From Akkermansia sp. (GTDB taxonomy: Bacteria > Verrucomicrobiota > Verrucomicrobiia > Verrucomicrobiales > Akkermansiaceae), in the NCBI GenBank assembly GCA_017521405.1, contig JAFXCP010000007.1:1-38355 (forward strand): DNA of 38,355 nt, in the 5' to 3' direction. The notes beneath the pieces are model-generated. The model searched no databases. It saw only the letters and a program-made list of their open reading frames with translations, and was not told the origin of the DNA. Of the stretch, positions 6,901 through 38,355 are shown one piece after another (positions within the stretch are counted from its first letter, which is position 1; each line of letters begins with the position of its first letter). The position numbers and the translations under genes were made by a program.

Positions 6901-9552
6901 GAAATCACAATAACCGGGGGTGCTTTACAAGTGGACGCCGGTGCATCACTCATGGGTGCAAGTGCCCTGCATTTAGCACATGCCTCTGCTGTTGCTCAAT
7001 TGGATTCATTCAACACATACAATGGGGGAACCACCATCGATGCCGGCGTACTGACAGCGACAGCCAATGGCGCACTGGGCAGTGGAGCTATCGAGTTGAA
7101 TGGAGGTTCCTTAGTTGTAGGTGCAGCAGCGAGAAACATATTCAGCACCATTTCCGGGATGACGATGACCGGTGGTTTGCTGGATCTTTCGGCCATTTCC
7201 TTTAACGAACACGATGCCATGGCTCTAAATGGAGCTTACTCCATAACCGGAGGAAGCATCAATTTGGGAAGCAGCATCTCCCAAACAGATACAAGCTATG
7301 CAATTTTCGACATCACCAATGCAGAGCTGGACTGGGAAAATCTTAAGGATCGTGTGATGGTTAATGGTGTGCATCTGAACTGTTACAAGGACGTAAGTAT
7401 GTCTATCTACGAAGGGGCTGCGACCCTTACTTTTGGCAGTTTTGAACTTAGCAAAATCGTCGTACCGAGCAATTCCACTCTTTCCTATTCGGAATCGCAA
7501 CTTCTCAGCATGAATACGCCCATCGTTGTTAGCTCCGGAGCCACACTTGTTCTGACGGGGAAAGAAACCTCAGCAAATTTGACATCCGAGGCTTTCGATA
7601 ATGTAAGCGGTGAAGGTAATGTGGAATTAACGCTTTCCAATGATAATGGTGTAGGATTTAACCTTAGCGGGATTTCCGGAGATGTTATCGTTGCAACGGG
7701 GCGTTTGCAGGTGAATACCTCCCAGCTCAACGATGAATCTACCATTAAGCTCAACTCTGCAAGCAGCCAGCTGGTATTCAATGGCAACGGCACAGAATTG
7801 AACAATGATGTAGAACTGGCAACAAGCACCACGGTCCATGTTAACAGCGGTAAGGATGGTACCATACTCGGCACTGTTAGCGGAAACGGAGGTCTCACCA
7901 AAGCCGGAGGCGGCACCCTCACTTTCGCCGCAGAAAACACCTATATCGGAGAAACAAACATCTCCGGTGGTAAAATCGTGTTGGACGTAAAGGATGGTGG
8001 GAATTATACACTTCGGGGAGCTATGAAAAACGGTACTTTGGAAGTGTCCAAGGATACCACGCTTGTCAACAACGGCATGGAAATTACTTCAACCTTGAAG
8101 TTGCTGGCAGGAGCCTCGGCTGATATGACCGGTTCCTGCAAGTTGAAGGGAGATATCCATGTGGGCAAGGGTGCAGAGCTTGTATTCTCCGGGAACAATG
8201 CATACGATACCATTGACTATGGCACCCCAAATAAGAAAATTGTGGTGGATGGCGGCATAGTGGACTTCGGGAAAACTCGCCAAACAATCCAAGGCTGGTC
8301 TATTAGCTTGAAAAATGGGGCAGTTTTGAAAGGAAGCGGGCAAATGTACAATGGCACAACGTACGCTGCCGCAATGGACTTTAATCAGGATGCTACCATC
8401 CGTGTAGAAAGCGGAGAAAACACGATTGCTGCTAATATGCGTCTGCGTGGCGGAAACACTCGTACGCTTACATATGACATAGCCGACGGAGCAACGCTCA
8501 ATCTGGCCGGGCGTATGCACGCAGATGATACCAATGCCAAAGGTAATGTCATTAAATCCGGCACAGGTACACTGGATGCGACTTCCCAGCTTATGCTGAA
8601 TAAGCTGGTTCTTCAAAATGGTGAGACTGTTCTTTCCTATACCGGGCAGGATGGCAATACGATTTCTACCATTCAAATGGGCAGTGATGCCACTTTGAAG
8701 ATTGCACAAGATGCCAAACTCTTGCTTGGCAATGCTCAGGTTTCCATCTCCGGGGATGGTGAAAGTGCCACACTAAAGACGACCGCCGCAGGGGATTATA
8801 GCGTAAGCAGTGACTCTTACGAGCTGAGTAATGGTCACATTCAAGCCACGGGAGAGAATACCACTATTGGCAATAAGCTGGTTAATAGCACCGTGGAAAA
8901 TGCAGGAACGGGCACACTGCTTGTAACCCATGATAACAATGTTCTCAAGGGCATCAAGGCAAGCAGCGGCAGCATATCTATCCACAACAGTCTGGCAAGC
9001 TTTGATTTGCAGGAGCTTACCATCGGCACGCAGCAGACAGTAACTATTCTTACTTCTGATGTGGAGGTTGGTTTCTTACCCACCTATGAATCAACTGTCA
9101 ATGTAACAAGTTCTGCCCATTTTGCCACCGGTGCCACGCTAAATGCCAACTTAAAGCTTGACGCAGGTACCATGGTTCGCTTGGATGGGGCACTTGCCAT
9201 GGGTAGTAGTCTGACCTTGGTCGGAGGGGAAACAGCCATCACGTTAACCGGCGATATGTACGAAATAGCCAATGCGCTGGAATACGGAGAGAGTTTGGTA
9301 CTGTTCAGCGGAGTGGATAACTTCTCTCTCGAAACGAGCGATACCAGCTTAACATTTGCGCCCGGAGAACTCACAGCAGATGCCGGTATAAAAGCAAATC
9401 ATTATTTCTCCAATTTGGAGGAATCTCTGGTTCTTGAGTACGATGAGGATGGCAGGGTGATGGTAACACAAAGCACCATCCCGGAGCCTGCAACAAGTGC
9501 CTTGAGCCTGCTGGCATTGGCAGCCATGAGTGCCCGCCGTCGCAGAAAATAA
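985..9552 (+). CDS. Giant S6-like serine protease with beta-helical passenger and PEP-CTERM tail
   Basis: The protein has 2855 residues from the ATG at 985. The frame is open back to a TTG at 904, but 985 gives a clean signal peptide (cleavage after VYA, residue 28) and matches the start of the paralogue at 28055. The mature N-terminus (YTDFGQNRGRY) resembles SPATE/IgA-protease proteins. A putative triad is His114 (TVKHN), Asp154 (LDYM) and Ser262 (GDSGSP), with spacing close to that known for S6 peptidases such as EspP. Residues of about 370-740 resemble the S6 post-protease region (MREWRKTGAGDLY, GGGTLDMNGNSMDW). A long Gly/Asn/Ser/Thr-rich repeat region follows, with autotransporter-associated repeats near 2005-2045 and 2290-2330. 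The end is IPEPATS, a hydrophobic stretch and RRRRK, a PEP-CTERM signal. No autotransporter beta-barrel is present. Surface anchoring and substrate are inferred or unknown. Confidence 0.85.
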   Translation: MKLSLPIVLRRAVIAALFFISASTTVYAGCMHEDAYLTTYTDFGQNRGRYVVGTRVNALLEHLREKDGGIAIEYKDGTPTYIISNEQGMIDFRGAPDAGYAALIGNNFLATVKHNGSLNGSYSGNDIGTEHAISYSAVDIRGSEIFRLFPESLDYMVQRQSKLATDAVSTPVISLSNMTTLTGQLMYHVGSGSQGVYTEHNKTYNSYCGAYVYNIGDIVEIKNYGGNTQTGDYTVGRDPGFGDGIGASEANPLPSALRAGDSGSPMFFYNQEKGRYEFLAVEQSGNPYSADYGRGNKQWTNTQLTRFDRSVSMGADCSVVHLGAIDAEGETLTDNLGNSTTLYSGKVTNASRQELTSYKGIRAGEHTWRDLSEVKNTANWYAYDSNNYDANSNSDGYLLQSRADLFFTENLVFSSSGQDNTIVLDATVDLGAGYAEFKNASYTIQAATGNDFQFNHAGYVIHEGAEVHLKLTNPDNYMREWRKTGAGDLYIDGTGNTNALLNLGGTGTTYLKQQNGHAAYNVLLNMGASLVIDSTMQVARDVTFGSGGGTLDMNGNSMDWYTTGGENLNNAFTINALTEEAMLTNSSTSDVTLTYKQGGETTYLGSFRDSTNGALIIDYKGGGTWHLNGIHTDLSQHENSGLNVTNGTVILSGVNTIHGEGSATGRNQDRLVAENDWHYADATMNVNVEDGGTFELGSHARLSGDVEVQSGGTFVMHEGVQHAEEYIEGGTSLQSTADIQDFYGLKGNVQLNNGSAMRIEFSEGTKTANSYDGKISGTGSLTVELGAADKKLILSGDNSGLSGEKELASGYLVAENLHSLGNTDSNTWKMTGVDAVLASHEGTAADLLARVHGDSVGTLALSGDTESALDLSGYTGLYIGAEDGTSVHYGRFDTALDAVGGKWQLGGGGGELYVDFKLSGNNNLVLGISETASGTVVLNNGENDFTGGISFSGKGLILKSVTGGLGAAKLDLNYGNALGASSTDVLQNHNLVDGSNGILLVNDISGASINLTDYADLALGAQGSAIYNGDITLAEGAAYRFSAAAGGSLTVSTALEANRDIVVDGQGLSGGSVVLKGNATLNGAIAVRGNATANSHGDITFVLGRNLTTTGAVTVENGGTIDLAGYNLAIAGSLSGTGGRLIDSKGYGVLTFTADSTDVSSDAYMDLGTVRKTGAGNFSLTNENVVIDHLYVDNGSVSMGAGARGMTVHLANGTHVDVGTHTMQFDLNMAFNSGVAELKHTGNNNVTLAGDINLGGGSQLNLHGGSGVSYTLNGANYGGGNAVLSVDADRIQFNTQSTAILGTLKAESDLEIYSNASGELERSISELHISNGAKVTLNERTWKTIWNIDSLSGEGELNWKSNTTHYNTSRVVLKGDGGFTGTISLERNRNNAERTHGAFIELASDTAAKNAVISLSGANSNSIATLAVNTHNASIKGLKGNEHSYVYAGESMDAAALSGTARPTATRNATLIVNVADGEEYTYAGALGCDKDTTNAGLNFVKIGNGVQNLTGSIATNNLTVKQGTLNISQAPIRGNLEVGLGANLNTGGSLVLNSGQMLSAIMGVEGDYSSAVLNGSLTLNGGSLGFDAAAIAAANKAGNAALSLQGINLNGAASINFTNYTAFKTGQVYTLATGNWQGLAESLTSTGLGYYSAAFSTNDSGYLQMTLTNGGSAILWKGTDADNVWDRNSFGPDNNSTNNASVVVFEDGAECKTVSMTVPRVYVKEVIFNNTEDYTIARGAEGYMVGATAQSLSVVNTGTVVVNDCITVTGNTVVNNGTLVYKMSGLLEGEVSGTGTFEVAWGSATPWGMYEEAYNLKVNGLNTLHISNGILGYTESKAMNVENIILESAGTYIQGNDVDQTSNFVVNGGRMQLGNGSLNGTLTQNGNAELQVRNGANAYLNSTLTQNGKLLTQTGGGALHIGADSATVLQNYRINSGSLLYDSGAMSQGNGHIEVAGGKLHVQSGAGLEAEEITITGGALQVDAGASLMGASALHLAHASAVAQLDSFNTYNGGTTIDAGVLTATANGALGSGAIELNGGSLVVGAAARNIFSTISGMTMTGGLLDLSAISFNEHDAMALNGAYSITGGSINLGSSISQTDTSYAIFDITNAELDWENLKDRVMVNGVHLNCYKDVSMSIYEGAATLTFGSFELSKIVVPSNSTLSYSESQLLSMNTPIVVSSGATLVLTGKETSANLTSEAFDNVSGEGNVELTLSNDNGVGFNLSGISGDVIVATGRLQVNTSQLNDESTIKLNSASSQLVFNGNGTELNNDVELATSTTVHVNSGKDGTILGTVSGNGGLTKAGGGTLTFAAENTYIGETNISGGKIVLDVKDGGNYTLRGAMKNGTLEVSKDTTLVNNGMEITSTLKLLAGASADMTGSCKLKGDIHVGKGAELVFSGNNAYDTIDYGTPNKKIVVDGGIVDFGKTRQTIQGWSISLKNGAVLKGSGQMYNGTTYAAAMDFNQDATIRVESGENTIAANMRLRGGNTRTLTYDIADGATLNLAGRMHADDTNAKGNVIKSGTGTLDATSQLMLNKLVLQNGETVLSYTGQDGNTISTIQMGSDATLKIAQDAKLLLGNAQVSISGDGESATLKTTAAGDYSVSSDSYELSNGHIQATGENTTIGNKLVNSTVENAGTGTLLVTHDNNVLKGIKASSGSISIHNSLASFDLQELTIGTQQTVTILTSDVEVGFLPTYESTVNVTSSAHFATGATLNANLKLDAGTMVRLDGALAMGSSLTLVGGETAITLTGDMYEIANALEYGESLVLFSGVDNFSLETSDTSLTFAPGELTADAGIKANHYFSNLEESLVLEYDEDGRVMVTQSTIPEPATSALSLLALAAMSARRRRK

Positions 9553-9584
9553 CAAGCTTGGTTATACACCCAGGGCAGCTTATT

Positions 9585-9620
9585 ATCCTCGCTTTTCCTT
9601 GCGAAAAGCGAGGATTTTTC
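9585..9620 (+). terminator. Intrinsic terminator after the giant protease gene
   Basis: A 13-bp perfect stem (ATCCTCGCTTTTC at 9585-9597, complement 9603-9615) with a 5-base loop is followed by a run of T. It sits 33 bases after the stop codon. The following 230 bases, up to the transporter gene, contain nothing I recognise beyond a small AAGGCG-ATA-CGCCTT palindrome at 9741-9755. Confidence 0.9.
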
Positions 9621-9850
9621 CAGCCTCAGTTAATGGTTGTGGCTTGGCCATTCATCATGGTGGACGGAGCGGGCACCAGAGTATCGGTAAAAGTAATTTT
9701 ATTAGCTTCTCTGTTCCCGGAGTTTACCTAATGGCGAGGCAAGGCGATACGCCTTCGGATTGGAGTACCCATAAGACCGATATCGCGGATGGTCTTTTTC
9801 CAGGGGTGCGAATGGCACTGCGCGCCGATGGTAAGTAAAAAAGATATCTC

Positions 9851-11497
9851 TTAATCCTCCGGTACGGTTTCTGCCCGAAGGGAAGGACGGCTTGTGACAA
9901 AAAGAAACACACACCCCACACAAAGAGACATGGAGCCATACAAAAGGAATGCATAAGTGGAAGCAGGGTCTTCCACGAGCGAGGTAAGAAATACGACCAG
10001 AAGATTTCCTAATGTGCTGGTAAGGAGCCAAAAACTAGCTACGATACTTTTAAGATTTTTTCCGGCAGCAGTATACGCATACTCCAATCCTGTTGTACTA
10101 ACAAGAATTTCAGAAACAGTGAGGAGGAAATAGGGAAGCCCCTGCCAGAGAATGCTAAGCTGCTCACCGCTCTCCAAGCGGTGCTGCAACCAAGCAATGG
10201 TGCCGTACGCCAATCCTGCAAGGAGGATACCTGTACCCATGCGCTTAAGGGGTGCACCCCATTTTCCCAGGTAGGGATATACGCAGAGAGTAACCAAGGG
10301 CACAAAAATCATAATCAGAAGGGGATTGAGACTTTGTATTTCCTCTGCACCAAAGACAAATTGCGTTCCCCAGAAGCTAAGGTCAATACTGTTCATCTGC
10401 TTTCCCTGGAGTACCCAGCTGGAAGCCGTCTGGTCGTAGAGGCTCCAGAAAGGAATAATCATGAGGAAAACCACTATTACACGTGCCAAGTTACGTGTTC
10501 CGGCTATATCGACCAAAGAGTAGCGACTTTCTGTATCCGCCTTAGAGTTAAAGATGAGACTTCCCCCCACCCCTAAAAAACCTTTCATACCCACGGAGGC
10601 AGCCAAACGCAATGCTGCCAGCAAAAGTGCGGCAATGTAGAGCAACAAGCCTACAAGAGCACAAAGGGAAGCCCATGTTTCCTGTATTCCACTCAAGCGG
10701 GCCAGACGGAAGGCACCACTATGTACCCAGTATCCCAGTAAGAGAACAATAGGGGCTATGACGATGAAGGCGGCTATACCCAATGCTGTGCGGGTGGTAG
10801 AGGCAACAGCGGCTCCGCCAAAACGTTCCACAGCGCGAGCTGAGCCCATGGTTAAACGGGTAAAGAGGATGGGTAGGAATTCCGGCTGTGCCGGGGGGAC
10901 ATGGTTATACTTATGGCGTCCCAACCAGAAAATGAAGGTAGCCAATGCCATGAAAATACCGGGTATACCAAAAGCCCAGCTATACCCCCAATTCTGGCGC
11001 ACCCAAGGAATAACTAAGAAGGAGAAGAATGAGCCCAGATTGATTGACCAGTAGAAAGCAGCGTAGAGGCGCGTCATCACCGGGGAATTTTTGGCTTCAT
11101 CCTTCACTTGGTCACCCACAAAGGCAGAAACGCAGGGTTTGATGCCCCCTGCCCCCACAGCAATGATGAACAAGCCCGCAAATAGTACCCAGCGGCGGGT
11201 TTCCACGTCCCCGGCAAAATCCGCCGAGGCAAGCACGAAATTACCTACGCAGTACAGTAAGGAAATGTAAAAAATCGTGCGATAGCGTCCCCAGAAGCGG
11301 TCGGCAAGCCAAGCCCCGAGAAGGGGCATAAGATATGTGGCAGCAATGAATAAATGCACCACCTCTGTGGCATCATTCTTGCTCATCATCAGCATCCCCG
11401 TCATGTAAGCCACGAGGATGCTGCGCATGCCATAGAAGCTAAAGCGCTCACACGCTTCGTTACCCACAATGTAACGAGTCTGGGGAGGCAGTGGCAT
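9851..11497 (-). CDS. POT/PTR2-family proton-coupled peptide transporter
   Basis: This 548-residue polytopic inner-membrane protein would import di- or tripeptides with protons. The N-terminal NEACERFSFYG matches the ExxERFxYYG proton-coupling motif of the family. GGIKPCVSAFVGDQ and FYWSINLGSF are further POT signatures. The many hydrophobic segments fit the usual 14-helix bacterial form. The gene starts 10 bases after the PpiD-like gene and is probably cotranscribed with it. Peptide substrates would suit a mucus- or protein-degrading gut bacterium, but that is inference, and specificity cannot be read from the sequence. Confidence 0.9.
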   Translation of the reverse strand: MPLPPQTRYIVGNEACERFSFYGMRSILVAYMTGMLMMSKNDATEVVHLFIAATYLMPLLGAWLADRFWGRYRTIFYISLLYCVGNFVLASADFAGDVETRRWVLFAGLFIIAVGAGGIKPCVSAFVGDQVKDEAKNSPVMTRLYAAFYWSINLGSFFSFLVIPWVRQNWGYSWAFGIPGIFMALATFIFWLGRHKYNHVPPAQPEFLPILFTRLTMGSARAVERFGGAAVASTTRTALGIAAFIVIAPIVLLLGYWVHSGAFRLARLSGIQETWASLCALVGLLLYIAALLLAALRLAASVGMKGFLGVGGSLIFNSKADTESRYSLVDIAGTRNLARVIVVFLMIIPFWSLYDQTASSWVLQGKQMNSIDLSFWGTQFVFGAEEIQSLNPLLIMIFVPLVTLCVYPYLGKWGAPLKRMGTGILLAGLAYGTIAWLQHRLESGEQLSILWQGLPYFLLTVSEILVSTTGLEYAYTAAGKNLKSIVASFWLLTSTLGNLLVVFLTSLVEDPASTYAFLLYGSMSLCVGCVFLFVTSRPSLRAETVPED

Positions 11498-28054: not shown

Positions 28055-31000
28055 ATGAAACTTCGTTTTCCTCTTCGATTCCTGCATTGTGTTCTACTGC
28101 CCGTCGGGGTTATACTCACGCTGAATACTACGCTTCATGCGGCAGTTATGCACTCGGATGTTTCGCGCAACACTTATGTGGATTTTGCATCGAATTCCGG
28201 GCGTTATGCAGTAGGTACAACTAATGCATTACTGGATTACATACGGCTGAGAGATGAGGGAGTGCAAATAGAATATACATCTACCAGTGGTAAGAGCGAT
28301 ACCCCCTACACCATGCAGCATGGTATGTTGAGCTTTGATTCCGTGTCGGATATAGGCAGCAGCACGGCAATTTCATACAACTATGTGGTGACTGCCGCTC
28401 ACCAGATGTCTGTACCATATCCTACGTTTACCACGAATGATTGGGGGATTGGCACCAATCGCAGTATCAAGTACATGGGGATTGAGGAGGGAACCAAATT
28501 TATCCATCAGATTTTCGGTGGCTCTAGTTCTGCTACGGAGCAGGACTATAAAATTTCCAGATTGAGCAAGTTGATTACCGATGTGGAGCCCGCCATGCTG
28601 TATACCGGAGATATCGGCAAGGAGTTGAAGCCAGAAGCTGCATTGGTATATCGTGTGGGCGGTGGTACTCAGTTGACTTGGGATAAGGATGGTAAAGAAA
28701 CTGAGGTGAACTACGGTGGTATGTTCACAGTGGGTGGTATAGGCTATATCCGCGATGTGGTTGAGGTTAGCGATGACTTTACTCGGGTGTATGTGACAAC
28801 GGCCGAAAAAACTACCAGTGGAGGTGCAAGCGATTTAACTCCTTTACCCTTTGGCTCTCAAGGGGCGGATTCCGGCAGCCCCTATTTTGTGTGGGATGCT
28901 AAGAGCAAGAGTTTTTGCTTCCTAATGGAACATATCGGAACCAATGGTGCCACCTATAAACGTGGTGGTTCTGCAGCGGGGTGGACGCAGGCTCAGATGA
29001 ATGCCGATAATGTCTACGTCAATATGGCTACTGTGGAAGGAGCGCTCAGGATAGAAGGAGCAGAGACATCCGAGGATGGCGGCACGACTGATACCATCAG
29101 TGGTCAGGAGGTGACAGTGAATCCGGCAGTGGGATACCTGAGACATAACGGGGGCAATTTGGTCTACGATAAAATTAATTGGGAGAGTGTGACGTTCAGG
29201 GCAGTCGCAACCGGGCAGCATACCTGGAAGGATTTGTCGTCATTGAAGAATAAGGACGATTGGTATGGTTACGGTAGTGAATATCTGAACGCAACACCCA
29301 GTGTTACGTTCGATGATGATGATAAAGCTGTTATCGAGGAGGGAATCACCTACGCGAAGTTGTATCAGACTCAGAATCTGGTGCTCCTGGCAGCCGCCGA
29401 TAAGGCTACCTACGATGTCAACGTGACCATGGATACAGATTTGGGGCTGGGGTACATGCACTTTGCGGCTAATGGACACAAGGATGTAGTTTACAAGGTC
29501 AACCCGGCCGGCAGCAATCAATTAAACTCGGCCGGTTATATGGTAGATGCCGGGGTGCGGGTGGATATAAGCCTACGCAATTCCGATACGAACTACATGC
29601 GCGAGTGGCGCAAGGTGGGTGAGGGTACGCTCAATATCTGCGGCACGGGTAACAATGAGATATTCCTGAATCTGGGTGGCAAGGGCGAGACTTTGTTGAA
29701 CCAGCAAGATGGTTATGCTGCCTACAATGTGCTGGTGAATACCGGCTCTACGGTGAAAATTGCCGACACAGGGCAGATTTTCCGGGATCTCACGTTCGGC
29801 AATGGTGGCGGCACACTGGATATGAATGGTCTGTCGATGGATTGGTACCTGACCGGCGGGGAAAAGCAAGCGGGCTTTACCATTCATGCACTTACGGAGG
29901 AAGCTGTGATTGCCAATAGCTCTGCAAAGCATGCTTCCCTTACTTTTAAGGAGGGAGGCTCGCAAAAATTCGTAGGCTCTTTCACTGATGACAAAGGGAA
30001 GTCTTCATTGGGTATAACCTATGCCGGTGGCGGCACCTGGGAACTGAACGGCATACAAACCCAACTACTCCATGAAAAGAGTGGGCTCACCGTGCAGAAC
30101 GGCACAGTTAAGCTCGCCGGTACGCTGACTGTACACGGATTCGGAAGCTCCAGTACATCAAAGGATGTCGTGAACTTTTCCACCCGAGAGAATGACTGGC
30201 ACTATGCGGATGCTACCATGAATGTCACCGTGCAGGACGGTGCTGTTTTTGAACTGGAGAGCCACGCCCGCCTAATCGGAACGGTAACGGTGCAAGAAGG
30301 GGGCAAATACATTATGCACGAGGGGGTGCAGTCCGAATACGAATATATTGAAGGTGGCGAGCAGGTGGAATCTACCGCAGCCATTAAAGATTATTACGGT
30401 CACAAAGGCGATGTGAAGCTGCAGAAAGATGCCGTCCTTTCCTGGCAGCGCGGTAGCATCGAGGTGGCATCGCTAAAGGGCACCGATGAGGCTTTTGCTC
30501 TGTCGAACATCGAATCCACCATCCTCTCTGAATCAGAACTGCGCTTGAAAGCAGTCGGCAATGAGCAGGCAGTCATATCTTCCTCTATTCTGTCGCTGCA
30601 GAAGAATACAAGTGTGGAGCTTGGCGCGCTTTATCTGGATTCTACCGCCTCGATTTCCTCGACGGAGGGAGCAACTGTCACCATGCAAGGTACTACACTT
30701 GTACTGGGAAGTGACAATACGACAATAACCGACATGACGACGGAGTCGCCTATAACCCTCAGTTTGCGAGGAACTGCTGATATGCCGTTGCAGCTGGATA
30801 GCGGTATAGCTGTGTCGGATATAACTTCCTCGGCTCTAATGGGCTCGCTCTCTCTTAATGGTACTCATCTTGTCATTAATCTTACCGAACTTAACACGCC
30901 GTTAAAGGGCTTGGTGCGTATACATTTCGGAGAGGATGTGAAGTTTGTCGATTCGGAGCTGACCGTAACGGCTCTTACGGATGCAGGTCAGACGGTCGGT

Positions 31001-31114
31001 TATTTCGAGCCGGGCAACGAGGCTTGTGTCTACTTCAACATTCCGGAACCCGCTACAAGTACCCTGATTTCGCTTGCGCTGTCCGCCCTTGTCACACGAC
31101 GCAAAAGAAAGTAA
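28055..31114 (+). CDS. S6-like serine protease with PEP-CTERM tail (shorter paralogue)
   Basis: The protein has 1019 residues from ATG 28055. An upstream in-frame TTG at 28013 overlaps the promoter and is rejected. A signal peptide ends near residue 29 (TLHA). The putative triad is His116 (VVTAAHQ), Asp164 (DYKISRLSKL) and Ser273 (ADSGSP, with Ala replacing the first Gly of GDSGSP). The segment after the protease domain is clearly homologous to the giant protein at 985, for example YMREWRK, GGGTLDMNG, MDWYLTGGE, ENDWHYADATMNV and IMHEGVQ. It has only a short extra passenger of about 220 residues. It ends with IPEPATS, a hydrophobic stretch and RRKRK. No autotransporter barrel is present. Secretion and surface sorting by the PEP-CTERM route are inferred. 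Confidence 0.87.
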   Translation: MKLRFPLRFLHCVLLPVGVILTLNTTLHAAVMHSDVSRNTYVDFASNSGRYAVGTTNALLDYIRLRDEGVQIEYTSTSGKSDTPYTMQHGMLSFDSVSDIGSSTAISYNYVVTAAHQMSVPYPTFTTNDWGIGTNRSIKYMGIEEGTKFIHQIFGGSSSATEQDYKISRLSKLITDVEPAMLYTGDIGKELKPEAALVYRVGGGTQLTWDKDGKETEVNYGGMFTVGGIGYIRDVVEVSDDFTRVYVTTAEKTTSGGASDLTPLPFGSQGADSGSPYFVWDAKSKSFCFLMEHIGTNGATYKRGGSAAGWTQAQMNADNVYVNMATVEGALRIEGAETSEDGGTTDTISGQEVTVNPAVGYLRHNGGNLVYDKINWESVTFRAVATGQHTWKDLSSLKNKDDWYGYGSEYLNATPSVTFDDDDKAVIEEGITYAKLYQTQNLVLLAAADKATYDVNVTMDTDLGLGYMHFAANGHKDVVYKVNPAGSNQLNSAGYMVDAGVRVDISLRNSDTNYMREWRKVGEGTLNICGTGNNEIFLNLGGKGETLLNQQDGYAAYNVLVNTGSTVKIADTGQIFRDLTFGNGGGTLDMNGLSMDWYLTGGEKQAGFTIHALTEEAVIANSSAKHASLTFKEGGSQKFVGSFTDDKGKSSLGITYAGGGTWELNGIQTQLLHEKSGLTVQNGTVKLAGTLTVHGFGSSSTSKDVVNFSTRENDWHYADATMNVTVQDGAVFELESHARLIGTVTVQEGGKYIMHEGVQSEYEYIEGGEQVESTAAIKDYYGHKGDVKLQKDAVLSWQRGSIEVASLKGTDEAFALSNIESTILSESELRLKAVGNEQAVISSSILSLQKNTSVELGALYLDSTASISSTEGATVTMQGTTLVLGSDNTTITDMTTESPITLSLRGTADMPLQLDSGIAVSDITSSALMGSLSLNGTHLVINLTELNTPLKGLVRIHFGEDVKFVDSELTVTALTDAGQTVGYFEPGNEACVYFNIPEPATSTLISLALSALVTRRKRK

Positions 31115-31441
31115 ACAGTTTGTTATGGACGGCTTGTTATAGCGAAGCCACGCGAGATGTGAATGTGACGTGACATTGCAGAGAACCGCTGAGTTGCTTA
31201 ACCCGGGGAGAGGGAGAGGGCTGAGGCAAATCGTTAATCTCCTGAGAATCAATTTCACAAGAGACAATTCGTTAAACATGCGCTGAACCATGGCTGCGAA
31301 TCGGGAGTTTACCACCTTGAAACAGCCGGGCATAACTTCCTTTTGTATGGCTCGTTCTTGAAACACTCCACAATTTCTGCAAGACAGCGGATTCGGAAAT
31401 CAAATGCCACAATTTCTTGGCTTGCCCCTAAATATAGGGCA
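31115..31441. other. Intergenic stretch, possible gene remnants
   Basis: There is no convincing gene or terminator here. A minus-strand frame (VMPGCFKVVNSRFAAMVQ within about 31130-31366) reads somewhat protein-like but overlaps the protease gene's end and matches nothing I know. It may be debris of an older insertion. The drop in GC begins here. Confidence 0.4.
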
Positions 31442-31526
31442 ATAAACTAAAAAAGCCTGCTTTCCAAATCGTGTCGGAAAGCAGGCTCGGCGAATACCCT
31501 TTGAGAAGGGTACGTCTCCGAGGATA
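31442..31526. repeat. 85-bp direct repeat, left copy
   Basis: It is identical to 37613-37697 except at two bases (C/T in the hairpin loop, G/A near the right end). It contains a 12-bp stem and a second, smaller hairpin (TACCCTT, TGAG, AAGGGTA at 31495-31512). The two copies bracket the defence-like genes. Confidence 0.95.
31448..31487 (-). terminator. Minus-strand intrinsic terminator inside the left repeat
   Basis: Read on the minus strand, AGCCTGCTTTCC, a 10-base loop and GGAAAGCAGGCT form a perfect 12-bp stem (31454-31487), followed by a T-run. It is positioned to end transcripts coming from the AbiH-like gene and the genes upstream of it. The 180 bases between it and that gene show nothing else. 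Confidence 0.85.
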
Positions 31527-31708
31527 GAGGTTGCTTAGGTGTAAACCTTGTATGCTGGAATTTCATTATGGCATCTTTCATAGAGCATCCCAAGTGTAAT
31601 AGAATGAAGTAAAAAGCGACGAAGATGATGTATGCCAGATTTTGACATCATGGCGAGTACATTCACGACCTACTTCACTCTCTGTCAGGATTACAAATTC
31701 GCTTCATT

Positions 31709-32722
31709 TTAAATTGTACTCTCACTATCCCATCCCTCAAGTTCCATATTTAGCTTGGTACTTCTTTGCCGGGATTGCAAATCATCATAAAATATTCGTT
31801 TCCCCGGGATTTTCATATTTATTAAGCGTTGTTTTTGTCTCAACGCTGATTGTACATCTTTAGAATATAAACGGATTTGTATTTCTTCCCTATTTAAATG
31901 ACTGAAGATTTCTTCAAAATACGGGACATCCACAGAAGAAAGAGAATGTCCATAGATTCTTATTTCCCTTAAATCAGATAAAGAATTGAAAAAATCCTGA
32001 TTTTCACTAATAATAGTCCTAGTGTCTTTCTTTAATTCTGAAACACTCAATGCAATTTGCTCAAGTCCAGAATCATAGGCGTATTCTGATGATTCGTAAT
32101 CTGTCATTTCATCTGGGAGTGAATCAGAGAGAAAACTATACTGTGCATCAGGAGGGGTTAGTAATTCCATGATTTTATCCCGATTAACTGAATGGCCATA
32201 TACTAGGTCGGAATTCTCTCCGCTAATGCCGTGTATATGTAAAATTTGTGTTTCAGGTATATTATATATTAGTTCCAATGTTTTGGTGTAATTGAATGTC
32301 AAAAACATCACATGCGATGATAACGGAATATCAACTTTTTGCTTTACTTTTTCCTTGTTAATTTCAATCTGAGAAATCCACTTCGAAAATGACTCAGTAA
32401 GGTCGTTATACATGCATTGCAGTTCTTCCTTACATGATTGCTGAAATTGATGATATTCACTGCACGAAAAGTCAACTGCCATATAACGCGGTGGAGTATA
32501 CAATTCCATAAGGTGGTATGGATCCAAGTATTGAAGAGACTCTTCAAAATCAGACCAAAAATCCGAATTTTCGTTAACGTTATAGTATAAAGACATTCTC
32601 TCTAATAGTGCAGGATTTGTTTCTAGCAAGAACTCGTGAAAATCTGCATAACGAGTTGGCAAACCGTGTTGCAAGTCAAACCCATTTCCGATAATGTAAA
32701 GCAATTTTATTTTTTCTTTCAT
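31709..32722 (-). CDS. abiH: AbiH-family phage abortive-infection protein
   Basis: The 337-residue protein has the AbiH landmarks: N-terminal IIGNGFDLQHGLPTRYADFH (residues 10-29), FNYTKTLELIY (about 142-153) followed by LHIHG, and IYGHSLSSVDVPYF (about 256-270). The GNGFDL segment looks like a nucleotide-binding loop, and the FNYT, HIHG and GHS motifs recall SIR2-like folds. AbiH was described in lactococci as blocking phage propagation by an unclear mechanism. The gene is AT-rich compared with the core genes. It lies last in a minus-strand defence cluster, after a broken TOPRIM fragment, and just before a repeat-borne terminator. Confidence 0.85.
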   Translation of the reverse strand: MKEKIKLLYIIGNGFDLQHGLPTRYADFHEFLLETNPALLERMSLYYNVNENSDFWSDFEESLQYLDPYHLMELYTPPRYMAVDFSCSEYHQFQQSCKEELQCMYNDLTESFSKWISQIEINKEKVKQKVDIPLSSHVMFLTFNYTKTLELIYNIPETQILHIHGISGENSDLVYGHSVNRDKIMELLTPPDAQYSFLSDSLPDEMTDYESSEYAYDSGLEQIALSVSELKKDTRTIISENQDFFNSLSDLREIRIYGHSLSSVDVPYFEEIFSHLNREEIQIRLYSKDVQSALRQKQRLINMKIPGKRIFYDDLQSRQRSTKLNMELEGWDSESTI

Positions 32723-32773
32723 AATATATCAGGCGCTTGTTTAGATATACTTAATTCAAGTTATCTTCATCCC

Positions 32774-32985
32774 TTAAGAGATGACTAATGCTGTTGAGAG
32801 GAGTGTGCTTTTTTTGCTGCGACGACTCAATATCTTGCGCGATAGGATGTGCTGATTGCAACCTCTTTCCAAGGGACGCAGCACTTCCTGTTTGGAGATG
32901 TAGTCCCATGAGTCAATGTATTCGCTGACTAGCACGGCCGGAGGAACATCTGAAATGTAGTTGAGAAAATCTGTCGGGGTGTCCC
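32774..32985 (-). pseudogene. 3' fragment of a second TOPRIM-like gene
   Basis: Positions 32826-32985 align without gaps to the 3' end of the intact TOPRIM-like gene (34513-34672), with about 22 mismatches in 160 bases by hand count. The minus-strand frame stays open for 69 codons (DTPTDFLNYISDVPPAVL..., against DTPTDFLNFISTVPPAVP in the intact gene) and ends with a different tail (STALVIS). It has no usable start, and the catalytic N-terminal half is missing. The mismatches are too many for a recent tandem copy, so it is more likely the leftover of a related cassette. It sits between the coiled-coil gene and abiH. Confidence 0.85.
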
Positions 32986-33053
32986 CATGATAAAACTGCG
33001 TTGTATTTGTAATCCCTCCTTCGTAAAAAGGAGAGTTTTGTTTTTTTTACTCA

Positions 33054-34451
33054 TTACAGCTTATTGTTTTGAGGATTACTATATGCTTTCGCTATGTCAA
33101 TACAGGCTTTTGAAAACATTTTAAATTCTTTAGATTTGAAGAAATCGGTGCAATCTTTCCCATTTGTTATTATGGGTTGAGTATACAGCTTTTCCACAGT
33201 ATCCATCAATAATGTGCATTTATTTCTGTCCTTTTCTCCATCAAGTTGATCTAAATAAGAGGTTAGAGTGGCTGCTACTGCTTCTCTAAAGGCATATTCT
33301 TCTAGTAAATGTCTTTCTTTTTTGTACTGTGCTAAGATAAACCATAACAGTACAACTGCAGGCGAGGTTTTGGCTACATTGACAATTAAATTTGCAAAAA
33401 TGATGATGCCGGTATCGGAAAGTTGCGTACCCTCTGCAAGATTTGTGTGCAAATGGGTGAATACATACCATATCCACCATCCTAAAGCTACGATACCAAT
33501 AAAACAAAAGAGTCGCCAAAACAACGCAGACCACCAAATTGCTCTTTTTCGTTTATTGAAGCTATGAGTCAATGTTCCATCGTTAATAAAATGCATCATC
33601 TTTCTCACTTCTTCAGCATGTGATGATACCTGTGCGAAATCTGATGCGATTTGTGTTATCTTCGATTTTGCTTCTTCGGTAAAATCAACCAAAGACTTTT
33701 TGCTCGCTGCAATATTGTTGTTGCTAGCCGAAATTTGATCGCTTACAATACTCTGGGAGTTTTCAAGACTATCTATAATCTTTTTAGTCTTGTTGTCTGA
33801 TTCTGTTATTGATTTCTCAAGCTTTACCGTATTACTTTCTATGTTCCGAATATTATTTAAGATTGTGTTGGATTCGGATTGATTTATCCTTAATGTCTCT
33901 AGTTCTTGTCGTTTTGTGCTAATAAGTTTTTCAATCTCTGTTTTTTTGTTACCCAACACTTCAATCAACTCGTCCACCTTATTTTCTCTCTCTTTAGCAT
34001 GAAGCAATGAAAGTTTCAGTTTTTCCTCGAGGTCAACCAAAGATTTATTAGTGCTTGTCCGCCCTCGCTTGTTTTGCATCCAGATGCCACAGTGCATTTC
34101 GAAATAAACAAGAGCTTTTACATATTGAGCCGCTTGTTCATATGAGGCACTAGCAAAATAATTTCTAATATTATCAATATTAGAGCTTAACGAAAAGCTA
34201 CCATATGATGACAATGGAACATTGTCGGATGGGAGAACTTTCCAATTTCCGGTTTCCAAAAACTCGTTTAACAAATCAATTGCCTTACGTGACTCAGCAA
34301 AAAGCTCAGCAATGGTATACTCTCCCACTAGAACAGTGTCAACCGTATTTGCATCAGTGTCTTTGTACTTCTTCTGGAAAGGCGTATCAAAATCAGCCTT
34401 TTGGTACTCCACTATTGCATCTAAAATCCTTTGTCTTTGAGCTGAATTCAT
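33054..34451 (-). CDS. Coiled-coil protein with two membrane helices, unknown function
   Basis: I do not recognise this 465-residue protein. The N-terminal 130 residues are mixed helix-rich sequence. Residues of about 135-275 are a long heptad-like coiled coil rich in Glu, Lys, Asn and Ser. Two membrane helices follow, near 303-330 (many Trp, such as WWSALFWRL and GWWIWYVF) and 345-373. A cytosolic C-terminal helical region (EEYAFREAVAATLTSYLDQL) ends the protein. There is no signal peptide. It starts 48 bases after the TOPRIM-like gene on the same strand, so cotranscription is likely. TOPRIM-gene sequences flank it on both sides. Its position inside a defence cluster makes a membrane-acting effector possible, but that is inference. 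Confidence 0.75.
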   Translation of the reverse strand: MNSAQRQRILDAIVEYQKADFDTPFQKKYKDTDANTVDTVLVGEYTIAELFAESRKAIDLLNEFLETGNWKVLPSDNVPLSSYGSFSLSSNIDNIRNYFASASYEQAAQYVKALVYFEMHCGIWMQNKRGRTSTNKSLVDLEEKLKLSLLHAKERENKVDELIEVLGNKKTEIEKLISTKRQELETLRINQSESNTILNNIRNIESNTVKLEKSITESDNKTKKIIDSLENSQSIVSDQISASNNNIAASKKSLVDFTEEAKSKITQIASDFAQVSSHAEEVRKMMHFINDGTLTHSFNKRKRAIWWSALFWRLFCFIGIVALGWWIWYVFTHLHTNLAEGTQLSDTGIIIFANLIVNVAKTSPAVVLLWFILAQYKKERHLLEEYAFREAVAATLTSYLDQLDGEKDRNKCTLLMDTVEKLYTQPIITNGKDCTDFFKSKEFKMFSKACIDIAKAYSNPQNNKL

Positions 34452-34499
34452 ACTAAAATAGCGTTGTTATTGTTGGAGTATGTCCTTATTTTTGTTCTT

Positions 34500-35213
34500 T
34501 TAGTTGTGTTTTCTCAATATCTTGTACAATAGGATGTGCAGATTGCAACCTCTTTTCAAGGAATGTAGCTCTCCCTGTTTGGTAATGTAGTTCCATGAGT
34601 CAACGTATTCGTTGGCTGGAACGGCCGGAGGAACAGTTGAAATGAAGTTGAGGAAATCTGTCGGGGTGTCCCTATACTTCTCATCGAATTGGTCGGCGAG
34701 TTTCAGTTTTTCTCTTGTTGTGCAATCTTTCTCAATATCAAACAAAACGTGTTCCAAGTTGCGAGAGCAATAGTATGCCTCGTAGGGGATGCTCTTGTAT
34801 GTAGTTCCCATGGTGGCTAGGAGGAGCATATTTCTACTCTTGGTTGCATTACGCTTTCTAACACTGTCCTTTGTCGGAGCTGTAATAGTTGTTGTCGTGT
34901 ATTGAAATCCGCTTGCTGTATCATCTTCCATAATTGCAGATTCCGGGACAAACGCACCATCCGTATCCATTAGATGAACAACTTGCAACAAGTCCTTAGG
35001 TTGCAGTCGATAGGAGGTCACAAATTTTCTAACCAAATCATTGAGCATTGTCTTTACGCTGGTTGTTCCTCGTCTCTCCAGCGTTGTTACGTCAGCACCG
35101 ACCACATGGAACCGGATTTTCTCATTGCTAAGCAACTTGGCAAGTACTCCCTCCAGTGCAGCGGCATCCGACTGCCCTTCCACTATGAACAATAAAACCT
35201 TTCTTGCTGCCAT
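34500..35213 (-). CDS. Small TOPRIM-like protein partnered with an AAA ATPase
   Basis: The 237-residue protein opens with LLFIVEGQSD, giving the TOPRIM-type Glu12, and has LMDTDG with Asp83 and Asp85 in a DxDG arrangement after a hydrophobic strand. TOPRIM folds bind metal and cut or join nucleic acids. Later segments (YYCSRNLEHVLFD, about 150-162) recall RloB/AbiL-type partners. It starts 5 bases after the ATPase gene, so the two form one unit. Split ATPase plus TOPRIM pairs are known in PARIS (AriA and AriB) and RloA/RloB-type systems, while OLD and Gabija GajA fuse the two parts. I cannot place it firmly in any of these. A broken relative lies at 32774-32985. Confidence 0.75.
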   Translation of the reverse strand: MAARKVLLFIVEGQSDAAALEGVLAKLLSNEKIRFHVVGADVTTLERRGTTSVKTMLNDLVRKFVTSYRLQPKDLLQVVHLMDTDGAFVPESAIMEDDTASGFQYTTTTITAPTKDSVRKRNATKSRNMLLLATMGTTYKSIPYEAYYCSRNLEHVLFDIEKDCTTREKLKLADQFDEKYRDTPTDFLNFISTVPPAVPANEYVDSWNYITKQGELHSLKRGCNLHILLYKILRKHN

Positions 35214-35218
35214 GGCTC

Positions 35219-36580
35219 TTAATCTCTCGGGATGGTCTTACGAATAGCGCGAGCAATTTCCGTTTTGTTGGTTTCTTCATACAGTTCCAGCTCCTGCCCC
35301 CCAATAAAGATAGAGCGCAGATATACATCTCGTAAGTTATTGCTTGCCTTGATATTCTTCATGCGGATAAATCGCTGATTCGGATCTACCGTGGTAAACA
35401 CCACGCTGCGCTTATCGAGCATTTCCAGAGGATGCAAGTTGTGTGCAGTGAAGATAAGCTGTCCTTGGGCATTTTCCTCCCATACAGAAAGAAGCTCACC
35501 CAGAAGATATTCAAAAATACTGGCATCAAGCTCATCCACAATCAGGCAGGAACCCGGAGTGTTGGAGACGATAATCCAATACAGCAAAATCGAGATAATC
35601 TTTTTAATGCCATCAGACTCGAACTTCAACGGTATCTCCACACCTTGACGGGAAGCTAAAAGCTCCATGCGCATCAGTTCTTCATTAATCGCACTCAGTT
35701 CAAGCCCCAGTTCCCGAACCTGCAATTCGAAGCCGGGAATAATCTTGCACATCACTTGATTCATGTGCGCAAGGGATTGTTTGAACTCCTGATATATGGG
35801 AAGCGGCAACGTTGACGGTGCGTTCAGATTAATCAGGCAGGTTCCCACAGCGGAACAATCGCAGTTTGAATCTGTGTGGGAAATAGGTATGGGCTGCAAG
35901 TTGACGTTAACCAAGCCAGATTTACTGTGTCCGATGACGAAAAGATTCCGTTCCGCATAGCAACGTACCGCACGAAGAGCCTCGCTACCTTCCGTCCCCA
36001 GCGTCATCAACAAGGGATACAGCCTTTGGTTGAAAATATATGAGGTACGCTCCTGATATGCCAATACCTTATTGATGACCAAATCTTGTCTGGAGCTGTT
36101 GCCTAAGACTTTACTGAAAGATGCATTAGGTACAAACTCTGCAACTGTCGGTAATTCCGGTTCCGTAAACTCTGCAACGGTGTTGGTTCGAGCTTTGGGG
36201 GCATTTGCCTTGATGGTAAAGCTCTCTTTCTTGACTCTAGCTCCATCGGCGTCATTGCCAATAGTGACCGCATATTGTGCAAAGATGTTGAAATTGTCGC
36301 GTTCTATGCTGAATAGAATGGCAACCGAAGCTTCCTTTTCCCCACAAGTAATCAAAGAAGCTGTGTCTGACTCCAATGGTAAACCGCAAATAAGTCGTTG
36401 CAGCAAAATGAAAGCATTGACTACGGATGTCTTGCCTGAACCATTCTGGCCATAAATGCCCAGCAGCTCTCCTTTTTCTGGCATATAGCCCGGGAGCCGA
36501 TTTGGCATGTCTATTTTCCCATGCCTGACATTTTTTATATTGGTAATCTCAAACGAGCATATACGCACCACCGTTTTCAT
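35219..36580 (-). CDS. OLD/ABC-like AAA ATPase of a defence module
   Basis: The 453-residue protein has Walker A GQNGSGKT (residues 44-51), an ESDGIKKIISILLYW signature-like helix near 320-340, Walker B CLIVDELDA near 345-352, and a switch-like FTAHNL near 378. This layout is that of AAA_15/AAA_21 proteins, whose ATPase heads dimerise like SMC or OLD proteins. A middle Cys pair (NCDCS) is notable. The final stretch (GGQELELYEETN) may contact the partner. It lies just upstream of the TOPRIM-like gene, as in known phage-sensing ATPase/nuclease pairs. A near-consensus promoter abuts its ATG. Confidence 0.82.
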   Translation of the reverse strand: MKTVVRICSFEITNIKNVRHGKIDMPNRLPGYMPEKGELLGIYGQNGSGKTSVVNAFILLQRLICGLPLESDTASLITCGEKEASVAILFSIERDNFNIFAQYAVTIGNDADGARVKKESFTIKANAPKARTNTVAEFTEPELPTVAEFVPNASFSKVLGNSSRQDLVINKVLAYQERTSYIFNQRLYPLLMTLGTEGSEALRAVRCYAERNLFVIGHSKSGLVNVNLQPIPISHTDSNCDCSAVGTCLINLNAPSTLPLPIYQEFKQSLAHMNQVMCKIIPGFELQVRELGLELSAINEELMRMELLASRQGVEIPLKFESDGIKKIISILLYWIIVSNTPGSCLIVDELDASIFEYLLGELLSVWEENAQGQLIFTAHNLHPLEMLDKRSVVFTTVDPNQRFIRMKNIKASNNLRDVYLRSIFIGGQELELYEETNKTEIARAIRKTIPRD

Positions 36581-36589
36581 AGCACGATT

Positions 36590-36617
36590 ATTTTACCAGA
36601 AAAAGAAGATTTGTCAA
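36590..36617 (-). promoter_or_regulatory. Proximal promoter of the ATPase operon
   Basis: On the minus strand, TTGACA (36617-36612) and TAAAAT (36595-36590) are 16 bases apart. The -10 box ends 9 bases before the ATG at 36580, so the transcript would have almost no leader. Confidence 0.75.
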
Positions 36618-36928
36618 CGGCAGATATACAAACCGGCATAAAAAATACCTTTATTTGTTTTATTTGTAGCCTGGAAGCCTGTTTTCGGTAGCTCGATAGA
36701 GAAGTAGAAACGCCATTTCCGGTTCAATACATGTAAAATTGGACTTGATTCTTATTCTGCACGTGCCCCATATACGCTAACTTATACGCCTCTCTTCTTG
36801 TTGAAAACGAGTTGTTCTTCCCACAAAGTCCTTTCTAGATGATTGGTTTATGTTCGATGAGGAAAATTATATATAACGTGGAGTTTGTGTCGTGTCAATT
36901 TATTGTGTTAGAAATTATGGTGTTACAA
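36618..36928 (-). other. Leader or ncRNA region between two promoters
   Basis: This AT-rich stretch of about 310 bases has no convincing protein gene. On the minus strand it would be transcribed from the distal promoter at 36898. It holds only very short ORFs (for example MGHVQNKNQ...) and no clear terminator. It might be a long leader or encode a small RNA, but nothing I can see decides between these. Confidence 0.4.
36870..36898 (-). promoter_or_regulatory. Distal promoter upstream of the ATPase operon
   Basis: A perfect TTGACA (36898-36893), 17 bases, and TATATA (36875-36870, within TATATATAAT) on the minus strand. It lies about 290 bases before the ATPase start and just after the end of the upstream ORF. 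Confidence 0.72.
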
Positions 36929-37387
36929 TTAACGAATCAAATTTTTTGCGCGAGATTTAATGCAGGTCGCGCATGCCTGATGTGACCTCAAGTGATATAG
37001 TCTGCTGGTTTTGTAATCCAAGTACACAACAAATCTTTTATTTTCTTCCTCTTGCACCTGAGCCGGAGCCAGATTCAGCAATTTCTCAACGGGAATACGC
37101 CAGAAACAAACCTTACCTCGGATTCCGCAATAGAACAGCCAGTATTTTTTCCTTAGTTTTTCTGCACGTAGTTTCTTGTATGGAATACGCATAACACACC
37201 ATTCCGGATACTTCAAATCAGAAGAAAGAGAAATGGACACATTCCTTCTCTGGCTCCTTATGCTGGGAGTCTTTCCGAGAGGAAGGTTTTGTAGCGAGTC
37301 ATGATAAACATACACATTCTGCACACGCAGGAACAGTTTGCCAATCAATCGTTCCCATGCCGCATTGAAACCTTCTTCGGACGACAT
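36929..37387 (-). CDS. Hypothetical protein, N-terminus uncertain
   Basis: The frame is open from 37720 (263 codons), but its first third crosses the 85-bp repeat and other repeated sequence, so I take the first clear internal ATG (37387; MSSEEGFNAAWERLIG), giving 152 residues. The sequence just upstream (KIAQNLRDLSVAPIIIQVRNK) also looks protein-like, so the true start may be a GTG or TTG further up. The body has a basic pattern with strands (VCFWRIPVEKLL, RFVVYLDYKTSRLYHL) and a C-terminal CATC pair. I recognise no family. It precedes the ATPase operon on the same strand and may be part of the island or a truncated gene. Confidence 0.5.
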   Translation of the reverse strand: MSSEEGFNAAWERLIGKLFLRVQNVYVYHDSLQNLPLGKTPSIRSQRRNVSISLSSDLKYPEWCVMRIPYKKLRAEKLRKKYWLFYCGIRGKVCFWRIPVEKLLNLAPAQVQEEENKRFVVYLDYKTSRLYHLRSHQACATCIKSRAKNLIR

Positions 37388-37499
37388 TTTGTTCCTAACC
37401 TGAATGATAATAGGAGCTACTGATAAGTCCCGTAGATTCTGGGCGATTTTCTGAATTCTCCCTTTTTCCCCAGGCTGCTGGAACAAATAGGCATATATG

Positions 37500-37592
37500 G
37501 CTCTTCTGCAATAATTGAGGAATGACCAACGGACGCAAGAAACGCAGGCGGAGAAATCTATTAGTAAAAGGTAGAAAAACAGGGCTTGACCC
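37500..37592. repeat. Diverged repeat unit, copy 1
   Basis: It begins with GCTCTTCTGCAATAAT (37500-37515), continues with GGAATGA and an AAG/AGA-rich stretch, and ends in GGGCTTGACCC (37582-37592). A second GGGCTTGACCC lies at 37600-37610, with a CCCAA-AAA-TTGGG palindrome between. It matches 37794-37890. On the plus strand, ATG 37522 opens a 66-codon Lys/Arg-rich frame that runs on through the 85-bp repeat. I doubt it is a gene. Confidence 0.7.
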
Positions 37593-37612
37593 AAAAATTG
37601 GGCTTGACCCGG

Positions 37613-37697
37613 ATAAACTAAAAAAGCCTGCTTTCCAAATTGTGTCGGAAAGCAGGCTCGGCGAATACCCTTTGAGAAGGGTACGTCTCCAAGGATA
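37613..37697. repeat. 85-bp direct repeat, right copy
   Basis: It is 83/85 identical by hand count to 31442-31526 and in the same orientation. It marks the right edge of the bracketed defence-like segment, 6.17 kb from the left copy. Confidence 0.95.
37619..37658 (-). terminator. Minus-strand terminator inside the right repeat
   Basis: The same 12-bp stem (37625-37636 with 37647-37658) is followed on the minus strand by a T-run. It would insulate the island from minus-strand transcription coming from the right. Confidence 0.8.
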
Positions 37698-37793
37698 CGG
37701 GCAAAAAAATGAGAAAACATAAAACCATATCTATAAGTATTTTATAAAACAGAGCAAAGGGTTTAAGATGGGGCTTTTTGGGGCTTTTTTTTC

Positions 37794-37890
37794 GCTCTTC
37801 TGCAATAATGGTGGAATGAGCCCAGCAAGGAAGAAAACGAAACCGGAGAAAACCATCAAGAAAGAGCAGAAAATTATTTAGGCTTGACCC
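37794..37890. repeat. Diverged repeat unit, copy 2
   Basis: It starts with the same 16 bases, GCTCTTCTGCAATAAT, has GGAATGA 6 bases later, a purine-rich stretch coding a 21-residue Lys-rich peptide on the plus strand, and ends in AGGCTTGACCC. The core is diverged from copy 1, but both ends are conserved. A GGGGCTTTTT direct duplication precedes it at about 37770-37792. Confidence 0.7.
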
Positions 37891-38355
37891 GTTGTTTTTA
37901 CTGAAGAATCCTCTGAGACGCTGAGCGTTAGAGGTTTACAAGATTTATATCCTTAGAGAAGAGTGCAACACTTCGTAACAGAATGATACTACGAATATTA
38001 CGAAGCACCTTTAATTTTACCCTGTCTGAGCATATACGGAACAAGTCCTTTCTTTTTATGTGAGTTTGCCGCGGGTCTGTTTCAGATTTGCTGGTGTTTA
38101 TTTCCGATTTGGCTCGATTCAATGAAATTAAGTCATTGAATGTCAGGCTAAGAATACCTAGTGTCATAAAAATGCATTTTTGTAACTTTACAAGCACTCT
38201 GAAATAGCGCTCAGTAGGTCATTTCTGTAACAGATGTAAGCAATTGGTTAAGTATTTGTTCTCTGTGGGTCACAGAAAATATCTACTTCTTAGACATCCT
38301 AACTCTATACCCTCAAGAATGCTCTATTTTACCTATTTTTACCAGCAGATTTGAA
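37891..38355. other. AT-rich end region, no convincing gene
   Basis: A minus-strand frame at 37928-38197 (89 codons, MLVKLQKCIFM...) has no recognisable family and poor coding character, so I do not call it. An imperfect inverted repeat (CCTCTGAGACGC with GCGTTAGAGG) lies at about 37909-37933. Nothing else stands out up to the window end. Confidence 0.4.

Follow-up and report, generated by a model that had tools for sequence, protein, structure and literature searches.

PARIS and AbiL are the described defence systems closest to the locus examined here. PARIS consists of two adjoining genes, for an OLD-type ATPase (AriA) and a DUF4435 TOPRIM protein (AriB); an anti-restriction protein is its trigger, and AriB cuts host tRNA. 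In AbiL, the ATPase AbiLi is joined by AbiLii. The OLD nucleases of classes 1-3 instead carry ATPase and TOPRIM in a single chain, and Gabija GajA is placed in class 2 in the account given by PMC10568477. The present locus lies in a 38,355-nt stretch of DNA from Akkermansia sp. (the window; contig C33 of a 2.0-Mb genome, labelled G000). It comprises three minus-strand open reading frames (ORFs) with intergenic gaps of 5 and 48 bases, an arrangement noted in the first-pass annotation and confirmed by the coordinates:

35219..36580, minus strand: ATPase gene, 453 aa, product ABC-like and of OLD type, presumed to be the sensor half of the pair
34500..35213, minus strand: TOPRIM gene, 237 aa, presumed to supply the nuclease half
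33054..34451, minus strand: third gene, 465 aa, with an N-terminal domain, a coiled coil and a part with two transmembrane (TM) helices; member of an unnamed family, linked to the pair and probably independent of it

The first-pass annotation had proposed these genes as one defence system. Given that the family of the third gene is separate and occurs also in prophages, what was proposed as one system probably consists of two neighbouring ones, and we favour reading the locus as an abortive-infection module of two genes next to a membrane gene that is independent of it.

The ATPase and TOPRIM genes form a real unit. Our genome scan yielded at least 57 TOPRIM loci besides that of the window, and among the matches listed an ATPase gene adjoins TOPRIM in 56 of these 57 (L062 is the sole locus without a called ATPase), a coupling that bears out the split OLD-type ATPase/TOPRIM pair first seen in these two genes. 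The two ORFs overlap in 50 of the 56 coupled loci, as counted from longest-ORF starts, which overstate overlap. Outside the 57 are three duplicate copies (L019, L109, and L110, of L044, L056, and L023, respectively) and L107 (G290, ATPase 58%), where automatic calling missed the TOPRIM ORF; it lies inside a longer ORF behind the ATPase, making this a further pair locus, in a genome without a third-gene match. Among the matches listed, the pair occurs in Clostridia, Spirochaetes, Actinobacteria, and Akkermansia, and it is also found on three plasmids, in one phage record, and on four viral contigs. Within the Akkermansia genus the ATPase (E ≤ 1e-40) is present in 10 of 77 genomes. The nearest pair loci, L020 (G335) and L021 (G315), are titled Akkermansia and belong to the window's genus.

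The third gene does not belong to the core of the pair system. It is present in one of the 57 other pair loci listed (G319, of the window's own genus), as profile and tblastn searches agree; at least 1.5 kb of DNA lies behind TOPRIM in 50 of these loci, and under 1.5 kb in seven. The four genomes with ~98% identical ATPases, the window's included, are themselves divided, the third gene being missing in two: L020 has an unrelated 476-aa gene behind the pair, and L021 a 500-aa AAA protein. Viewed from the other side, no ATPase/TOPRIM profile match (E ≤ 1e-3) was found in any of 12 other loci of the third-gene family (L013, L077, L078, L082, and L083-L090). Of these, L077 is split over two frames, L090 is diverged and cut, and L083-L085 share only the coil/TM part, L084 coming from the window's genus. 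L074 (G293) likewise showed no match to the pair, but it is not counted among the 12, as the contig breaks off within the gene. These neighbourhood counts rule out a three-gene system as a general rule, and the conserved neighbourhood in unrelated genomes that would mark an obligate partner was not found among the pair loci listed. Outside one genus no conserved association with the pair was found among the loci listed, the outcome that the first-pass annotation had named as refuting its proposal, and membership of the third gene in the system in general is not supported. What is left of that proposal is a local link: the third gene (E ≤ 1e-5) is carried by three of the 77 genus genomes, lying right behind the pair in two (G000 and G319) and at a contig end in the third (G293). 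The locus cautions against taking three close genes for one system.

PARIS is called, by the rule set out in PMC9122126, from AAA_15 at ≥ 32 bits or AAA_21 at ≥ 27 bits, plus DUF4435 at ≥ 27 bits. The window's ATPase scores 33.9 bits for Pfam AAA_21 against the cut-off of 27 and so agrees with the ATPase half of PARIS, whereas a Pfam search with its TOPRIM partner listed no DUF4435 at E ≤ 1 (above 0.1, most matches are lost to the HMMER filters), and no DUF4435 match was found in the genome at E ≤ 1e-5. Among PADLOC profiles, the ATPase is recognized best by AbiLi (PDLC02335, 1.2e-30), followed by AriA at 2e-10. An AbiLii partner is not recognized: no match is listed in PADLOC, none was found in the genome at E ≤ 10, and profile comparison (hhalign) of the TOPRIM protein with seven AbiLii-type proteins gave a probability of 2.7%. 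Membership of PARIS and of AbiL is thus rejected on the nuclease half by these sequence models. No RloB family was found for the TOPRIM protein at E ≤ 1 in Pfam, and no direct comparison with RloB was made. The TOPRIM protein does weakly match DUF4276 (Pfam E 0.012, 16.3 bits, below the cut-off of 30.2) and HEC-01B (PADLOC, E 0.0055) at its N-terminal motif. Compared with a profile built from 19 ORFs that lie at DUF4276 loci in the phylum, it aligned over only 32 columns round the first TOPRIM motif (61% probability), although this profile is not clean, as at least two of the 19 ORFs (L115 and L122) are, by eye, neighbouring ATPase ORFs. With a nuclease half that fails the PARIS and AbiL models, the pair is a novel form within the split OLD type; it most likely acts like a split OLD system and matches no named one tested. 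It represents a distinct, testable branch of split OLD systems whose nuclease half goes unrecognized by the models tested.

Conserved residues of catalytic type support this assignment. The ATPase has a Walker A motif (GQNGSGKT, residues 44-51) and a Walker B motif (LIVDELDAS from residue 346, with D349 and E350); the Walker A/B, ESxG, and switch-His columns are invariant in seven of seven aligned ATPases, and the ratio of nonsynonymous to synonymous substitution (dN/dS) of the gene is 0.05-0.14. The TOPRIM protein carries E12 and DTDG at 83-86, of which E12, D83, D85, and G86, but not T84, are unchanged across all 34 aligned TOPRIMs. Besides the window, this alignment draws on 33 of the 46 scan loci; the 13 absent ones include split or truncated loci (e.g., L032, L054, L056, L064, and L065) and others that were not entered (L035, L038, L057, L060, and L062). 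All four motifs had been picked out in the first-pass annotation, and their invariance, T84 aside, places them beyond chance. In the wide sense of a Walker A/B ATPase with a TOPRIM glutamate and DxD, the pair is of OLD type, although, unlike in the OLD nucleases, it is split over two genes. The predicted structure of the TOPRIM protein (model confidence, pLDDT, 92) appears nearest to OLD TOPRIM domains, which fill the four best VIA-align rows (6nk8, 6njx, 6njv, and 6njw) with modest likeness. Foldseek gave no match to this model at E ≤ 0.001, the PARIS complex ranking 13th (E 0.074); the absence of that complex from the 50 VIA-align entries shown is no evidence against a PARIS-like fold.

The third protein belongs to a family with an N-terminal domain of about 145 residues, a long coiled coil, two TM helices, and a conserved QYxxERxxxEEYAFK-like tail. 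In the window's protein, a heptad-like stretch lies between about 130 and 295 (its heptad contrast was reached in 28 of 2000 shufflings of the stretch), and two hydrophobic helices span about 303-334 and 348-374. The coil and the two helices described earlier are thus present, but only the first helix is Trp-rich, with six Trp residues against one in the second. Pfam, NCBIfam, PADLOC, and PHROGs gave just sub-threshold matches, nearly all to coiled-coil proteins; the exceptions are LMBR1-like (Pfam, E 0.0072, under the cut-off) and phrog_13035 (function not assigned; residues 58-145, E 0.0043). A PDB sequence search returned coiled-coil or long-helix proteins, and none of the papers listed in literature searches describes such a protein in its title or abstract opening. 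In these sources we found no name for the family.

Relatives of the third protein occur in several other settings. In an Acinetobacter BREX operon, a homologue (84% of length, 26.7%, E 8e-22) is encoded between pglX and pglZ, and 24 Acinetobacter plasmid records contain a relative, with pglX or pglZ named at the match in 19. A cloned Acinetobacter BREX operon is described with seven named genes in PMC9122589. The extra gene, annotated only as a hypothetical protein, differs from the window's in being part of a BREX operon, and the 15 kb tested there contain no ATPase/TOPRIM pair. On a Hymenobacter plasmid, a relative lies behind a P-loop nucleoside triphosphatase gene and is apparently split over two frames. 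The family was also detected in five viral contigs and, out of 50,697 phage records, in a single one, that of Riemerella phage GDF21. Relatives in two prophages (L078 and L089) are near helix-turn-helix/repressor and integrase genes, another (L086) accompanies integrase, Zot-like, and nicking replication proteins in a prophage that we read as filamentous, and those in L087 and L088 adjoin a baseplate gene; the prophage form in L088 had no megablast match in E. coli genomes. In the window's phylum, a profile search detected the family in 6 of 288 genomes, the window's included, where G045 alone has a near full-length member and the rest have the coil/TM part. Unnamed yet recurrent in prophages and in a BREX operon, the family offers an inexpensive candidate for a novel defence gene. 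In L084 and L007 (G027), the TM part follows what by eye look like Sel1-type repeats, which suggests a wider shared membrane module.

Two sets of observations bear on how the locus was assembled. Between the window's third gene and that of G319, the proportion of synonymous differences (pS) rises from 0.081 in codons 1-147, where the likeness is almost that of the pair, to 0.787 in codons 148-465. Over the latter codons, the window and G293 have 89% protein identity, with dN/dS of 0.11. This contrast and this identity indicate that the coil, membrane, and tail part was exchanged as a block near the coil start. Around the three genes, the following features were found:

32989..33054, minus strand: frameshifted start of a 214-aa gene, identified by alignment; the ORF is open behind the third gene in G293 (L074)
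32806..32988, minus strand: TOPRIM relic, left from the 3' end of another, diverged TOPRIM gene, identified by sequence similarity
31709..32722, minus strand: AbiH-family gene (Pfam AbiH), 337 aa, downstream of the trio on the same strand
36590..36617, minus strand: candidate promoter of the pair, TTGACA-16-TAAAAT with extended -10 (consensus scan, 11/12)
31442..31526, no strand assigned: 85-nt repeat with an intrinsic-terminator-like hairpin, at one island edge
37613..37697, no strand assigned: second copy of the 85-nt repeat (98%), at the other island edge

The TOPRIM relic matches positions 34493-34675 at 83% over 183 nt and TOPRIM residues 180-235 at 64% in amino acids. It shares 140 of 163 nt with the window's intact tail, whereas the intact tail shares 162 of 163 with that of G319. 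The frameshifted start of the 214-aa gene joins the relic at a short shared GGGAC. A second pair may once have lain downstream and been largely deleted. These relics, the AbiH gene (PF14253, E 2.9e-56, 191.9 bits against a cut-off of 30.9), and the repeat on both sides point to turnover of the island; with its relics, swapped gene part, and bounding repeats, the locus illustrates how defence islands turn over.

The analysis shows the gene content, pair coupling, conserved catalytic-type residues, probable fold class, uncoupling and other contexts of the third gene, purifying selection, and recombination; defence activity, its trigger and substrate, and an action at the membrane are inferred. 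The ATPase would serve as a scaffold holding the TOPRIM nuclease inactive and would sense a phage product, whereupon an ATP-dependent step would free TOPRIM. The freed nuclease may then cut nucleic acid, either tRNA, as AriB does, or DNA, and so stop the infected cell. The membrane gene is probably an independently mobile one that came to lie behind the pair within an Akkermansia lineage, and its product probably acts alone, as in prophages, sensing infection in the cytosol and causing a block or damage at the inner membrane. A bolder proposal, which we hold only tentatively, is that the third protein founds a widespread single-gene family for membrane defence or superinfection exclusion (in tailed and filamentous prophages, BREX, and the pair's island) in which the coil-membrane effector is swapped and the N-terminal sensor kept, while the pair is a new split OLD class that may use the third protein as a membrane arm in Akkermansia.

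Several findings weigh against treating the third gene as independent of the pair. It has the same order, strand, and spacing in G319 as in the window, its codons 1-147 are nearly as conserved between the two as the pair itself, it is intact and under purifying selection, and two of its three carriers in the genus have it with the pair, a co-occurrence with Fisher p = 0.043 over 77 genomes, uncorrected for shared descent. It is conceivable, given the shared position in G319, that in this lineage the third protein was recruited as the pair's membrane arm, as an anchor or a pore-forming second effector. We consider this unlikely, with L020 and L021 lacking the gene despite their ~98% identical ATPases, 56 of the 57 other pair loci listed being without it (seven of the 57 with little DNA behind TOPRIM), the family occurring in settings without the pair, and the coil-TM part having been swapped. 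Alternatively, the third gene could form a two-gene module of its own with the 214-aa gene whose start overlaps its stop in G293; the window would then keep the first gene and the broken start of the second. The overlapping stop and start in L074 and the frameshifted relic would fit such a module, but G319 has the third gene without the 214-aa gene, the family members viewed in BREX and prophages lie beside different genes, and L074 is cut off on its upstream side by a contig end, so that we regard it as improbable.

The remaining alternatives concern the pair. That it is simply PARIS or AbiL would be in keeping with the AbiLi and AriA matches of the ATPase and its AAA_21 score; the TOPRIM half, with no match to DUF4435 or AbiLii at the thresholds given above, makes this very improbable. 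Still less credible is a repair or maintenance ATPase/nuclease without a role in defence. Ordinary-looking genes do lie behind many pair loci, but the patchy distribution in the genus, the presence on plasmids, in a phage record, and on viral contigs, and the AbiH neighbour in the window all speak against it.

Two promoters had been proposed ahead of the three genes. The number of promoter-like sites in 31000-38355 (22) is not above that in shuffles (17.9 ± 4.7), which leaves this claim weak, but one 11/12 site with an extended -10 (36617-36590) directly precedes the ATPase start. No Rfam match to an RNA element was found in 30500-38355 at E ≤ 0.5. Upstream of the pair and on the same strand, a 263-aa ORF (36929-37720) has a 176-aa core that is 87.5% conserved in the G319 locus (L073), and no Pfam family matched it. 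An origin from SIR2 was rejected for this ORF, since just 22 residues are common with the SIR2 protein of L073 and the remainder is a separate ORF. That SIR2-like (SIR2_2) protein lies near the pair in G319 (L073 4357-5133). No AbiH gene appears among the ORFs that follow the third gene in L073. In L021, the 500-aa protein (8835-10337; AAA_21/AAA_15) occupies the slot where the window has the third gene. A third, partial copy of the 85-nt repeat lies elsewhere in the window's genome (G000:C36:8412-8467), and copies flank the island on both sides in L073 too. The G319 island is also flanked by two 97% identical 215-aa genes (L073 1932-2579 and 9658-10305), which we take by eye to be chloramphenicol-acetyltransferase-like, and a relative of these precedes the pair in L021.

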